This document shows positions 4,728 through 10,876 of a DNA stretch of 33,190 nt, in pieces. Both the position numbers and the translations under genes were made by a program. Location: the NCBI GenBank assembly GCA_020832405.1, contig JAFIET010000043.1:1-33190 (forward strand), in the 5' to 3' direction. The notes under the pieces are model-generated. The model was not told the origin of the DNA. It did no database searches and saw only the letters and a program-made list of their open reading frames with translations. This DNA comes from Balneolales bacterium (GTDB taxonomy: Bacteria; Bacteroidota; Rhodothermia; Balneolales; Cyclonatronaceae). Positions within the stretch are counted from its first letter, which is position 1, and every line of letters begins with the position of its first letter.

Positions 4728-7049
4728 ATGTTTAAATATCTACAGACTGCAGCTGTGCTGCTTGTTATGACGGCCGTGCCTTTTCCAGCAGCGGCACAGG
4801 GAAATTTCTTCCTCGATGAAAATGGCGTAACCATTAAATGCACCGGAGCCACTCCAGGCGAAACCGGAACCGTAAACGGCGTGGAATACGAGGCCGTTGA
4901 CCGCGATTTGTTAATTCAGCGAATTGCCGATGAAGCTGATCTTACTGTTGTTTGTACTACGCCGGTAGTCACGTTAGAATCCATTTTTAACAACAACTCA
5001 TCCTTCAATCAGGACATCAGCAGCTGGGATGTTAGTAATGTTACCTCGCTTTTTCAGGCATTCAGAAACACGAGCTCTTTTACACAAAGCCTGAGCGCAT
5101 GGGATGTTAGCAATGTAACCGATATGGGGGGTGTATTTATCAACAGCGCATTTAACGGAGATATCAGCAACTGGGATGTAAGCAATGTGACATGGATGTT
5201 CGGTATGTTTAATGAGAGTGTTTTTAATCAGGATATCAGTGGCTGGGATGTCAGCAGTGTTACCAATATGCAACAGCTATTCCGCTGGAATTTCAACTTC
5301 AATCAGGATATCAGCAACTGGGATGTGAGTAATGTCACCGACATGAGATACATGTTTAGCAATGCAACTTCTTTCAATCAGGATATCGGTAACTGGGATG
5401 TAAGCAGTGTCACTAATATAGATTACATGTTTCTCGGAGCCACAGCCTTTAATCAGGACATCAGCAACTGGGATGTAAGCAACATAACAAATATGCAGGC
5501 CGTGTTTGCTGGCGCAACATCATTCAATCAGCCTTTAGATAGCTGGAACGTTGGAAGTGTTACTGCCATGACGGATATGTTCCGTGATGCAGCGGCCTTT
5601 AATCAGCCCCTGAACAGCTGGGATGTAAGCAACGTAACTGTTATGGTCCGTATGTTTGCTGGCGCAACATCATTCAATCAGCCCCTGAACAGCTGGAATG
5701 TGAGCAGCGTGACGAATATGTTTCGAATGTTCTTCATTGCAACGGACTTTAATCAGGACCTGAACAGCTGGGATGTAAGCAGCGTAACCAACATGGAGGA
5801 AATGTTCCGGAACGCCGCAGCTTTTAACGGGAATATCAGTGCATGGAACACCTCTTCTGTAGAAACCATGACCTTCATGTTTTTCGGTGCAACGGATTTC
5901 AATCAGGCTATTGGCGGATGGAATATGAGCAACGTAACAAGCATAGCACAGATGTTCAACGGGGCATCTTCCTTTAATCAGGATCTTAACAATTGGGATA
6001 TCAGTAATATAACAATGCTTACCGCAGTATTTGCTAACAGCGGATTCAACGGAAATATCAGCGACTGGGATGTCAGCCAAGTAACGATGCTAAATGCTAC
6101 CTTTGCCGGAAGTCCGTTTAACGGCGATATCAGTGGCTGGGATGTAAGCAGTGTAGAGATAATGGGCGGTGTTTTTGCAGACAGTCCGTTTAATCAGGAT
6201 ATCAGCGGCTGGGATGTAAGCAATGTTACCAATATGAGCCTTTTGTTTCGGTCAAACAGCGCCTTTAATCAGCCCATCGGAAGCTGGGATGTGAGTAATG
6301 TTACAACTATGAGACAAATGTTTGACAAGGCTACATCCTTTAACCAGGATATCAACAGCTGGAATACGGGGAATGTTACCGATTTTAATTTAATGTTCGA
6401 CGGAGCCACTTCCTTTAATCAGCCGTTGAACAGTTGGGATATGAGCAGTGCAACGTCAATAGCTTTTATGTTCCGTGATGCCACTTCGTTTAATCAGCCC
6501 ATTGGAAGCTGGGATGTAAGTAATGTTTGGAACATGAACTGGGTTTTTTATGGTGCAGAAAGCTTCAATCAGCCACTTGCAAGCTGGGATGTAAGCAGTG
6601 CGACCGCGATGAGTGCCATGTTTCGCGATGCCGCATCATTCAATCAGAACCTTAGCGGCTGGTGCGTGGAAAATATTACGAATGAGCCTGATCAGTTTGC
6701 CGCCGGCGCCCCGCTCGCACCGGCTTTTTTCCCTGTTTGGGGAACCTGCAACCCTACGAGCGTTGGGGAAGGCGGTGAGCTCGTAACCACATTCACCCTC
6801 TCCCAAAACTACCCCAACCCCTTCAACCCGACAACCCAAATTCAGTACGCCCTACCCGAAGCGGCAGAGGTGCGGCTGGAGGTCTTCAACCTTGCGGGTC
6901 AGCGGGTGGCGGTGCTGGTGAGCAGCATGCAGACAGCGGGCACGCACAGCGCCACCTTCAGCGGACAAAGCCTGGCAAGCGGGGTGTACCTGTACCGCCT
7001 GCAGGCCGGCAGCTTCGTGCAGACCCGGAAGATGCTGCTGCTGAAGTAA
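4728..7049 (+). CDS. BspA-like DUF285 repeat surface protein with T9SS tail
   Basis: The 773-residue protein has a signal peptide (about 1-24, ending AAAQ) and a short N-terminal region. It then has 23 repeats of 24-25 residues from residue 93 to about 660, with consensus [25 protein letters not shown]. This is the DUF285/BspA-type leucine-rich-like repeat (PF03382) seen in surface proteins of Mycoplasma, Vibrio and Bacteroidota. The last repeat is degenerate (SGWCVENIT) and a T9SS type A sorting domain (about 690-773, [13 protein letters not shown] through the terminal KMLLLK) follows. By family knowledge, T9SS exports the protein across the outer membrane and anchors or releases it after the tail is cut. 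Binding or adhesion is likely, but no ligand can be named. The repeat body is noticeably more AT-rich than the tail. A terminator follows. Confidence 0.93.
5004..6713 (+). repeat. Tandem 72-75-bp repeats encoding the DUF285 array
   Basis: Twenty-three in-frame units begin at each FNQ/FNG/FTQ codon group. Some neighbours are close at the DNA level: the 29 bases starting TTTGCTGGCGCAACATC occur identically near 5507 and 5653. Most other units have diverged, which suggests old expansion with some recent duplication or conversion. Confidence 0.9.
6796..7049 (+). repeat. T9SS tail module, copy 1
   Basis: These 254 bases encode the sorting domain. They align without gaps to 10623-10876, with about nine differences (roughly 96% identity), while the parts of the two genes upstream share no similarity. 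The module is markedly GC-richer than the repeat body before it. Confidence 0.9.
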
Positions 7050-7524: not shown

Positions 7525-9114
7525 ATGCACCGTTTTATACACCTGCAAGCTATACCCAAGCGTATAGCTTATGAAAGTTATGTACAGCAGCTCATGCTCA
7601 CACTGATGGTGACGGGCTTACTGCTTTTTTCGTTAGCTCTTCCAGCCCGGGCCAACAACATACAGGTCACTAATGTAACCGTCACCGGTCAAAATACGGC
7701 TGAGGGCTACTGGCTGGTTCAGTTCGATTTAAGCTGGGGAAACTCCTGGCGCACGGATAACATTTTCCCGGGTGACGGCCACGATGTTGGCAACTGGGAT
7801 GCCGCCTGGGTCTTTGTTAAATACCGCGTGGGCGAGGGCGAGTGGCAGCATGCCAAACTGCACAGCAGCGGTCACAGCACGGGCACCGGCACCCCGGCCA
7901 CGCTGCGTATAGGCGTGCCCAATGAACGCACAGCCTTTCACAGCACAGATAACCCAGGCGTGGGCGCCTTCATTTACCGCAGCCAAGACGGCAGCGGCAC
8001 CTTCTCCACCACCGGCAACCAACTGCGCTGGAACTATGGAGTGGATGGCGTGCCAAACTTTACGGAACTGGATATCAGGGTGTTTGCCATTGAAATGGTG
8101 TATGTGGCACCGGGCGCGTTTCAACTGGGCAGCGGGGGAAACGAAACCGGCCGGTTTCATGCAGGTGGTTCTACTGACACTACGCCTTTTCTGGTCACAG
8201 AGAACTGGGGTGGCTGTATAGCCAACACAAACGGCTGCCTGTGGGCAATTGGCACTATGGACACCGGCGGCAGCCTACATGAGCATTACCCAACAGGAGT
8301 GGAGGGTTTTTACAGTATGAAATACTCCGTCAGCCAGCAGCAGTATGTGGACTTTCTGAATACGCTGACATCAACACAAGCAAATATGCGCGCCTATACT
8401 GCTGGTACCAATCGCAACGGAATTTCTGTTAATAACGGCGTGTATGCTACCACCAATCCTTATGTTGCTAATAACTTTATGACATGGATGGATGGGGCGG
8501 CGTATCTGGACTGGTCGGGTTTGCGCCCGATGACCGAGCTGGAATATGAGAAAGCAGCCCGTGGCCCGGCTGCTCCGGTAGCCAATGAATATGCCTGGGG
8601 AACGGCACAAATTGCAGGCTCGGCCTACACCCTGAGCAACGCGGGTGGGGGCGATGAATCTATAGCTACTAACTATAGCACAACCGCGGGCAATGCTATG
8701 TACACTATCACAGCAAGTACAATTGGCGGGCCTGTACGTGTGGGGGTTTTTGCTACGGTCAGCAGCAACCGCGTGCAGACCGGCGCGGGTTATTGGGGTA
8801 TTATGGAGCTGTCCGGGAATTTGTGGGAGCGTCCGGTTACTGTGGCTAACACAACAGGTCGTAACTTTACAGGATTGCATGGTAATGGAATGCTCACTTC
8901 AAATGGTCATGCTGCGGTAGCGGGCTGGCCGGGTTTGTCAGGCGGAGCGATAACGATTTCCACCGGCTCCGGCCTCCGCGGGGGCTCTTATGGCAACAAT
9001 TTACCGCAGATCCAGGTCTCGGACCGCGCTGCTGCCGCTTCAATCGGCCCTCGGGACCGAGCCCAGGGGTTCCGTGGTGTGCGGTCGTTGCCTGCTGCCG
9101 TTGAGGGAAACTAA
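7525..9114 (+). CDS. Secreted FGE/SUMF1-fold protein, probably non-catalytic
   Basis: The 529-residue protein has a signal peptide ending PARA (about residue 43); a start at M24 (7594) would give a more ordinary one. A beta-rich N-terminal domain (about 45-190, [12 protein letters not shown]...[11 protein letters not shown]) precedes the formylglycine-generating-enzyme / C-type-lectin fold (about 191-520). Family marks in order are [13 protein letters not shown] (191), [38 protein letters not shown] (427) and the C-terminal LRGGSYGNN...GFRGVR (483-520). The two active-site cysteines of true FGE, which lie between the GGS and GFR motifs, are absent, so a binding role is more likely than sulfatase maturation. 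Such folds are also known targets of diversity-generating retroelements, with variation in exactly this C-terminal stretch. The T9SS-tailed gene starts 37 bases downstream with no terminator between, suggesting one operon. Confidence 0.85.
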
Positions 9115-9151: not shown

Positions 9152-10876
9152 ATGAATATGAAATTAGTAAGCCTCATTGTAATAATAGTATTGGCAGCGT
9201 GGGAAACAGCCTCAGCCCAGTTTTTAGGGGGCACGGGCCGCGGGGATAATATGGGAGAAGCGCTGGGCATCGGAAATTTTATTAACCCTTTTATGGGTGG
9301 GGCTGGCCGCGGGGATAATATGGGGGAAGCGCTGGGCATCGGAAATTCTATTAACCCTTTTATGGGTGGGGTTGGCCGCGGAGACAGTATGGGCAGCTTT
9401 GAGCTCAGGGGCGTTGAATACACCGCAGGTCTGCCGGGCCCCAACGAAGGCTGGCGCATCCTCGGAGCCCCGACCGCAGGTGCAACTTACGGTGAGCTGC
9501 TCAGCGGGCTGTGGCTGCAGGGCTTCCCCGGGGCAAACGTGGACTTTGGTACACCAAACGTGTACTGGTACGATGAGGCAGCCCGTGCCTGGAATGTGCC
9601 GTCCCATGCTTCTGATGTGGTGGGCAGCAGCGCCGATACCTTTACCAACGCCGGCCGCGGCTTCATTGGATACATTTATGAGGATGACAACTATGACGGC
9701 AGTCCGAATGGCTGGCCCAAGACTATCGGCGTTACCGGCTTCCCGCACCGGGGCGATGTAAGTGTACCCCTCACATTTACCGATCCTGACAATGATGGCA
9801 GGGGCTGGCAGATTGTCAGTAATCCGTACCCGTTCGCTGTTTCCTGGGCGTCTGTATTTGCAGATGCAGCTGACCTTAACGCGAACGCCTACATCTGGGA
9901 TGCCAACCGTACCGGCGGTGCAGATTATATTGATACCGGAATCGAAGGCGGACATAACGGTATCATCGCTCCCTTTCAGGGGTTTTGGGTACGCGCAGAA
10001 AGCGCTGATGCAGCCCTCACATTCATGGAAAGTCACGAGGACGCGGGCAGCGCAGCTTTATTTGGCGCTGGTTTCTACCCCCTGGCAGAGCTGATTGTGC
10101 GTAACGACGGGTATCAGTCAGCTGCCTCGGTTGCCTTTGACGACAGCAGAAGCGCTCAGCCGGCGGTGTACAACGCACACCGATTGAGCAGCCTGAGCCC
10201 AAGCTATCTGCAGCTGTATTCTTCTTCTGAGGCCGGGGCCGCCTGGCGCCTTCAGTATCTGCCGGAGAGCATGCACGACGTGCAGGAAATACCGCTTCAC
10301 ATCAGCAGCACGGTGGGCAGTCAGCTTGTGATGGAGGCCGGTACCCTGCGTTTACCCGAAGGCGCTGAGCTGAACCTCAGGGACAATCAGACCGGTGAGC
10401 TCATGCCGGTAACGGCCGGGCTCAGCTACAGCTTTGAGCTGCATGAAACCCGCACTCCGGAAAGAAACGGCAGCACGACCGACCCGCTCAACCGGCTGAC
10501 GACAGCCGCAGCAAACGGCCCTGTAATCAGCACCGCTTCCGAAGCATCAGCCCGCTTCACACTTATGGTGTCCGGCAGCTTCACAAATACAGCCCCTGAG
10601 CGTGACCTGCCACGGCAGTTCGCCCTCTCCCAAAACTACCCCAACCCTTTCAACCCGACCACCCAAATTCAGTACGCCCTGCCCGAAGCGGCGGAGGTGC
10701 GGTTGGAGGTCTTCAACCTTGCGGGTCAGCGGGTGGCGGTGCTGGTGAGCGGCATGCAGACAGCGGGCACGCACAGCGCCACCTTCAGCGGCCAAAGCCT
10801 GGCAAGCGGGGTGTACCTGTACCGCCTGCAGGCCGGCAGCTTCGTGCAGACCCGGAAGATGCTGCTGCTTAAATAA
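9152..10876 (+). CDS. T9SS-exported protein with tandem GG-x-GRGD repeats
   Basis: With the ATG at 9152 (or 9158) the product has about 574 residues and a good signal peptide ([13 protein letters not shown]...ASAQ). The frame is open further upstream, but that part overlaps the FGE gene and encodes implausible arginine-rich sequence. Two and a half 23-residue repeats follow (24-80), each with GGxGRGDxMG. Next is a beta-rich domain (about 85-290, [18 protein letters not shown] ... [12 protein letters not shown]). I recognise this as recurrent in surface proteins of this phylum but cannot name it. A linker leads to the T9SS type A sorting tail (about 490-574). It is probably co-transcribed with the FGE-fold gene and displayed at the cell surface, perhaps as its partner. 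The molecular function is unknown. Confidence 0.85.
9221..9391 (+). repeat. 69-bp tandem repeats encoding GG-x-GRGD units
   Basis: Units at 9221-9289 and 9290-9358 differ at only a handful of bases. A third, partial unit starts at 9359 and diverges after GDSMG. The close DNA match points to recent tandem duplication, and the copy number may vary between strains. Confidence 0.88.
10623..10876 (+). repeat. T9SS tail module, copy 2
   Basis: This is the partner of 6796-7049. The match starts abruptly at CCCTCTCCC and runs to the stop codon; the two genes end in synonymous AAG TAA and AAA TAA. Confidence 0.9.

Follow-up and report, generated by a model that had tools for sequence, protein, structure and literature searches.

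The gene at positions 7525–9114 of the window, the 33,190-nucleotide stretch of Balneolales DNA analysed here, is probably a former target of a diversity-generating retroelement (DGR) that was duplicated and is now frozen, and that is accompanied by a tagged surface partner exported by the type IX system. The features of the locus are as follows.

7525..9114, + strand: secreted protein of the FGE fold (C-type-lectin type), assigned to a DGR target family (PF03781, AlphaFold2 model, structural matches)
8977..9084, + strand: variable-repeat-like stretch, [36 protein letters not shown], with a putative eroded DGR footprint (paralog variation, template columns of L066, pooled codon bias)
9152..10876, + strand: partner, a predicted secreted protein with N-terminal tag repeats and a C-terminal type IX sorting domain (translation, PF18962, TIGR04183)
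9227..9247, + strand: tag copy 1, GGTGRGD (whole-genome pattern search)
9296..9316, + strand: tag copy 2, GGAGRGD, at 69-bp tandem spacing (whole-genome pattern search)
9365..9385, + strand: tag copy 3, GGVGRGD (whole-genome pattern search)
10637..10861, + strand: type IX C-terminal sorting domain of the partner (Por_Secre_tail, residues 496–570 of P0002)

The open reading frame at 7525–9114 encodes a protein of 529 residues, with a hydrophobic segment at the N-terminus and an FGE domain at about residues 189–523. The Pfam FGE-sulfatase model PF03781 matches the protein at 27.1 bits (cut-off 23.3) and matches 47 of 47 relatives. An AlphaFold2 model computed from 47 family members is of good quality (pLDDT 85.7). 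In structural alignments, its Z scores are 19.9 with formylglycine-generating enzymes (FGEs), 19.4 with PorK, a ring protein of the type IX system, 18.6 with TvpA (2y3c), a DGR variable protein, 12.0 with TaqVP, and 11.1 with Mtd. The Pfam and structural matches bear out the FGE fold that an earlier note, made from the sequence alone, had claimed for this protein. The same note described the protein as lacking catalytic cysteines, and the catalytic cysteine pair of FGE was indeed not found in the translation of the frame. Only two cysteines are present, [10 protein letters not shown], and they are distant from the RGG...GFR segment, the site of the catalytic pair in FGE; that segment is replaced by the 36 residues of the variable-repeat-like stretch, without a cysteine. 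A C-terminal variable repeat (VR) within a C-type-lectin/FGE fold is one feature by which the protein is placed in the DGR target family. TvpA of Treponema denticola shows the same combination of FGE-type C-type-lectin fold and C-terminal VR, but TvpA is part of a DGR, whereas the window has no reverse transcriptase (RT) or template and a tagged partner gene follows the target.

A genome-wide search found 396 stretches that encode relatives of the protein, in Balneolales, Bacteroidales, Ignavibacteria, Flavobacteria, and other groups. At four of 79 loci (L066, L090, L110, and L140), the target has a DGR-type RT beside it, together with an Avd-like gene. In L066, the gene order is target, RT, bAvd, template repeat (TR), and tagged partner gene; the RT has the motifs IGNLTSQ and YMDD, and the accessory gene matches bAvd at 43.4 bits (cut-off 40). 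The mismatches between TR and VR are confined to template adenines in L066 (21 of 21), L090 (23 of 23), and L140 (17 of 17), that is, 61 of 61 in all. These three cassettes have a target homologous to that of the window, with the VR at the same position, and L066 has, in addition, a GGNGRGD-tagged gene downstream. They differ in having RT, Avd, and a TR with adenine-only differences, whereas the window has target and partner only. The C-terminal stretch singled out by the earlier note as the place where DGRs rewrite their targets is thus the VR position of relatives with complete cassettes. Judged from these sequences, the family of the 529-residue protein is a genuine DGR target family by descent. 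In L110, the target beside the apparent DGR is frameshifted inside the VR. Strong matches to a DGR-type RT (over 180 bits, our own cut) were found in about seven of 50 family-bearing genomes, and the RT-bearing members are scattered over the target tree, so that the genomes of most family members are without such an RT. One Ignavibacteriae MAG (G143, the genome of L079) has family matches at 13 places. Viral contigs yielded two distant homologs, both without RT and tag, and therefore a phage origin is not indicated.

The window's genome has five paralogs, the window copy included; the other four are 62–72% identical to the window copy, and one of the five has an in-frame stop. In the five-paralog alignment, 8977–9084 is the most variable segment of the gene and ranks among the top windows. 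Columns with four or more residues make up 44% of the VR stretch versus 11% of the rest of the gene, an excess greater than chance and one that the earlier note had anticipated. Among the five paralogs, pN is 0.41 in the VR versus 0.22 outside it, and pS is 0.60 versus 0.73. The pS of the VR is near that of the rest, and the synonymous sites are not homogenised, which speaks against recent overwriting by retrohoming. The stretch is framed by conserved RGG, VS, R, and GFRGVRSLP positions. Three or more residues are found at 12 of the 13 columns that are AAC or AAT (AAY) in the L066 template, versus 9 of 24, with p = 0.0014; these template columns are those of L066, another organism, rather than those of the lost template that the window's own lineage would have had.

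The earlier note considered certain codons of the stretch (GCT GCT GCC, GGC AAC AAT, and ATC GGC) compatible with adenine changes from an AAC/AAT-rich template, and these codons are present. A count of C/T-ending codons without amino-acid matching was judged confounded, as Kordia also gives 9–11 of 13, and a fourfold-codon test was therefore used. Because this test is limited to fourfold-degenerate codons, amino-acid composition is unable to produce the C/T signal. In the pooled paralogs, C or T is the last base of 25 of 32 fourfold codons at template-N columns; outside these columns, the figure is 418 of 766 (p = 0.006). The same test gives 13 of 13 for active-DGR loci, the positive control, and 22 of 40 for conserved Kordia homologs, the negative control. 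With amino-acid matching, the C/T-end bias of the five paralogs has z = 2.6. The cleanest endings are those of paralogs C97 and C36, together 14 of 15 fourfold codons. The C97 paralog (L033), which is the one with the in-frame stop, has the cleanest template footprint, 13 of 13 codons ending in C or T. The window copy by itself has six of eight fourfold codons ending in C or T, which is not significant (p = 0.2); its VR has lost one codon and carries non-adenine changes; W is replaced by Y, and the codons at 3 of the 13 template-N columns end in A or G. The adenine-template signal in the codons is significant for the pooled set and not for the window copy taken by itself. Against ordinary selection, the codon footprint of the five-paralog set is an argument of moderate strength. 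The paralogs are old, with pS about 0.7, and we therefore infer the DGR phase from its remnants.

The window's genome (3.96 Mb in 188 contigs, with completeness estimated by the tool at 100%) contains no RVT_1, no L066-type RT when the L066 RT is the query, and no bAvd. Beyond the five VRs, there is no copy of a template repeat in a peptide search and no near copy in a DNA search. With RT, Avd, and an adenine-limited template repeat all absent from the assembly, no active DGR is found. The earlier note had remarked that the window holds neither RT nor template, which is true and extends to the whole genome; the genome search that it proposed, for a DGR-type RT and a near-identical template copy, recovered neither. 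What it called a possible hypervariable binder is upheld as regards the DGR target family and the most variable stretch, but not as regards active hypervariability, given the missing RT, Avd, and template. Two observations had been named there as counting against the idea: the lack of any retroelement in the genome, which is what we find, and the lack of excess variation in the stretch, which is not. Among 11 genomes of the window organism's family (f1), one of them, other than the window's, a single contig, no L066-type RT was found with the L066 RT as query. Two RT matches in the same genus were set aside. The match in G003 (L051) is, by eye, a long Ty3-like frame with a polymerase and an RNase H-like part, not a DGR, and is probably eukaryotic contamination of that draft genome; the match in G001 is a short fragment only.

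A pair of loci in relatives presents the cassette-bearing and the cassette-less state side by side. L065 and L066 are 98.5% identical through target and VR, but L065 is without the 1,972 bp that separate VR and TR in L066. After the VR, L065 passes directly into sequence found beyond the L066 template, and the junction falls inside the VR/TR repeat. All 22 differences between the L065 VR and the L066 template are at adenines, and no RT was found in the L065 genome. Recombination between VR and TR would explain the L065 layout in one step, its direction being unproven; the pair is one of cassette presence versus absence, and gives no direction for the window's lineage. The layout of the window, target, 37 bp, and partner, is the same as that of L065.

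The partner gene, 9152–10876, was not covered by the earlier note. Its product ends in a sorting domain (PF18962, TIGR04183), which marks it as a type IX-secreted protein. Downstream of each of the five paralogs is a gene whose product has a signal peptide followed by AQFxGGxGRGD. The GGxGRGD codon pattern occurs seven times in the whole genome, each time a short way downstream of one of the five paralogs. Across 14 other genomes, 42 of the 71 occurrences follow a family member at a distance of no more than 3.6 kb, against a background expectation of 0.04, and the tag is found downstream of 30 of the 44 family matches. By our count, the tag or its GDGF(D) variant is present at 42 of 79 relatives' loci. 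The variant is found in arrays of 23–27-residue repeats in relatives from Flavobacteriales and Lewinella; in the Lewinella and Kordia relatives L121, L136, L131, and L132, it takes the form GGxGDGF(D), in up to eight repeats of 25–27 residues. Outside the tag, the partners are widely divergent, often with a type IX sorting domain at the end. Neither Pfam nor NCBIfam has a model that includes the tag, the open-access literature has no mention of it, and on a link between DGRs and type IX secretion that literature offers nothing past a passing review mention. At the start of the partner in the window, 9227–9385 consists of nearly identical tandem units of 69 bp with the tag, two and a half in number, evidently a recent duplication. 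The upstream gene, 4728–7049, encodes a surface protein of the DUF285/PARCEL-repeat type that also has a type IX sorting tail. The last 258 bp of that gene (6792–7049) and the partner tail (10619–10876) have 96% DNA identity, which suggests that the genes on either side of the FGE gene have recently exchanged sorting domains.

The main rival to a DGR past is ordinary diversifying selection. In this case, the lineage would never have had a DGR, the FGE binding face would have evolved fast after duplication, and the variable columns would coincide with those of the L066 template as exposed positions of the fold. The lack of an L066-type RT in the 11 genomes of family f1 agrees with such a history, as do the lack of significant codon bias in the window copy by itself and the variability of further loops of the gene. 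However, the five paralogs are C/T-biased, C97 and C36 most cleanly, and the conserved Kordia homologs are not, and we consider this history rather unlikely. A DGR still acting in trans, with RT and template inside an assembly gap, would be compatible with an assembly of 188 contigs and with the remote DGR targets already on record (Roux 2021, PMC8144416). Such a DGR is highly improbable given the estimated completeness of the genome without any RT, Avd, or template match, the other f1 genomes, one of them a single contig, without an L066-type RT, and the synonymous sites of the VR, which are not homogenised.

Two further alternatives concern what the protein does. The fold is the same as that of the formylglycine-generating enzyme SUMF1 (Z about 19–20), as expected for an enzyme of the FGE, EgtB, or PvdO kind, but the catalytic segment is without cysteines, the region of the FGE active site is the variable region here, and the NCBIfam search of the protein gave no enzyme family; we give an enzymatic role very little credence. 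PorK and GldK have the FGE fold in a non-enzymatic role, PorK aligns closely with the model, and the partner is type IX cargo, all of which would fit a structural part of the type IX machinery. PorK and GldK, however, are core ring components of a secretion machine, whereas the window protein belongs to a set of five paralogs and is distinguished by a hypervariable face and a tagged partner. In addition, the NCBIfam search gave no PorK/GldK equivalog-level match, similarity to GldK is sub-threshold only and was seen for the relative L066, and the family is missing from many order-mates. That the protein belongs to the machinery is, on this evidence, most improbable.

The reading that we favor, a former DGR target that is now frozen, would have the following course. 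In an ancestor, adenine-templated mutagenic retrohoming would have diversified the C-terminal strand-loop of an FGE-fold binding protein. The target would have been duplicated to five loci and the retroelement lost afterwards, likely through direct-repeat recombination of VR with TR, which would delete RT, Avd, and TR and leave target and partner adjacent. The present variants would then be inherited, drifting under ordinary mutation and selection. Secretion of the target would proceed by its own signal peptide and export of the partner by the type IX system. Through its mature N-terminal GGxGRGD tag, the partner would most likely keep the target attached to it on the cell surface, and the variable FGE face may bind a ligand.

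To our knowledge, neither a display route nor a partner is known for most bacterial surface DGR targets. A tag marking the neighbor gene in distant phyla provides a family of hypervariable binders with a testable partner. It is tempting, though still speculative, to see here a widespread two-protein surface display module, in which an FGE hypervariable protein is joined by a type IX-exported protein with an N-terminal GGxG(R/D)G(D/F) tag, onto which the FGE protein docks. DGR cassettes might enter between the two genes and exit by VR–TR recombination, so that lineages could switch between diversifying and frozen repertoires. Cassette-less loci with adenine marks suggest that DGRs can be temporary, their products being fixed and duplicated later. 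If so, surveys based on RT only would underestimate the protein diversity that DGRs have produced.
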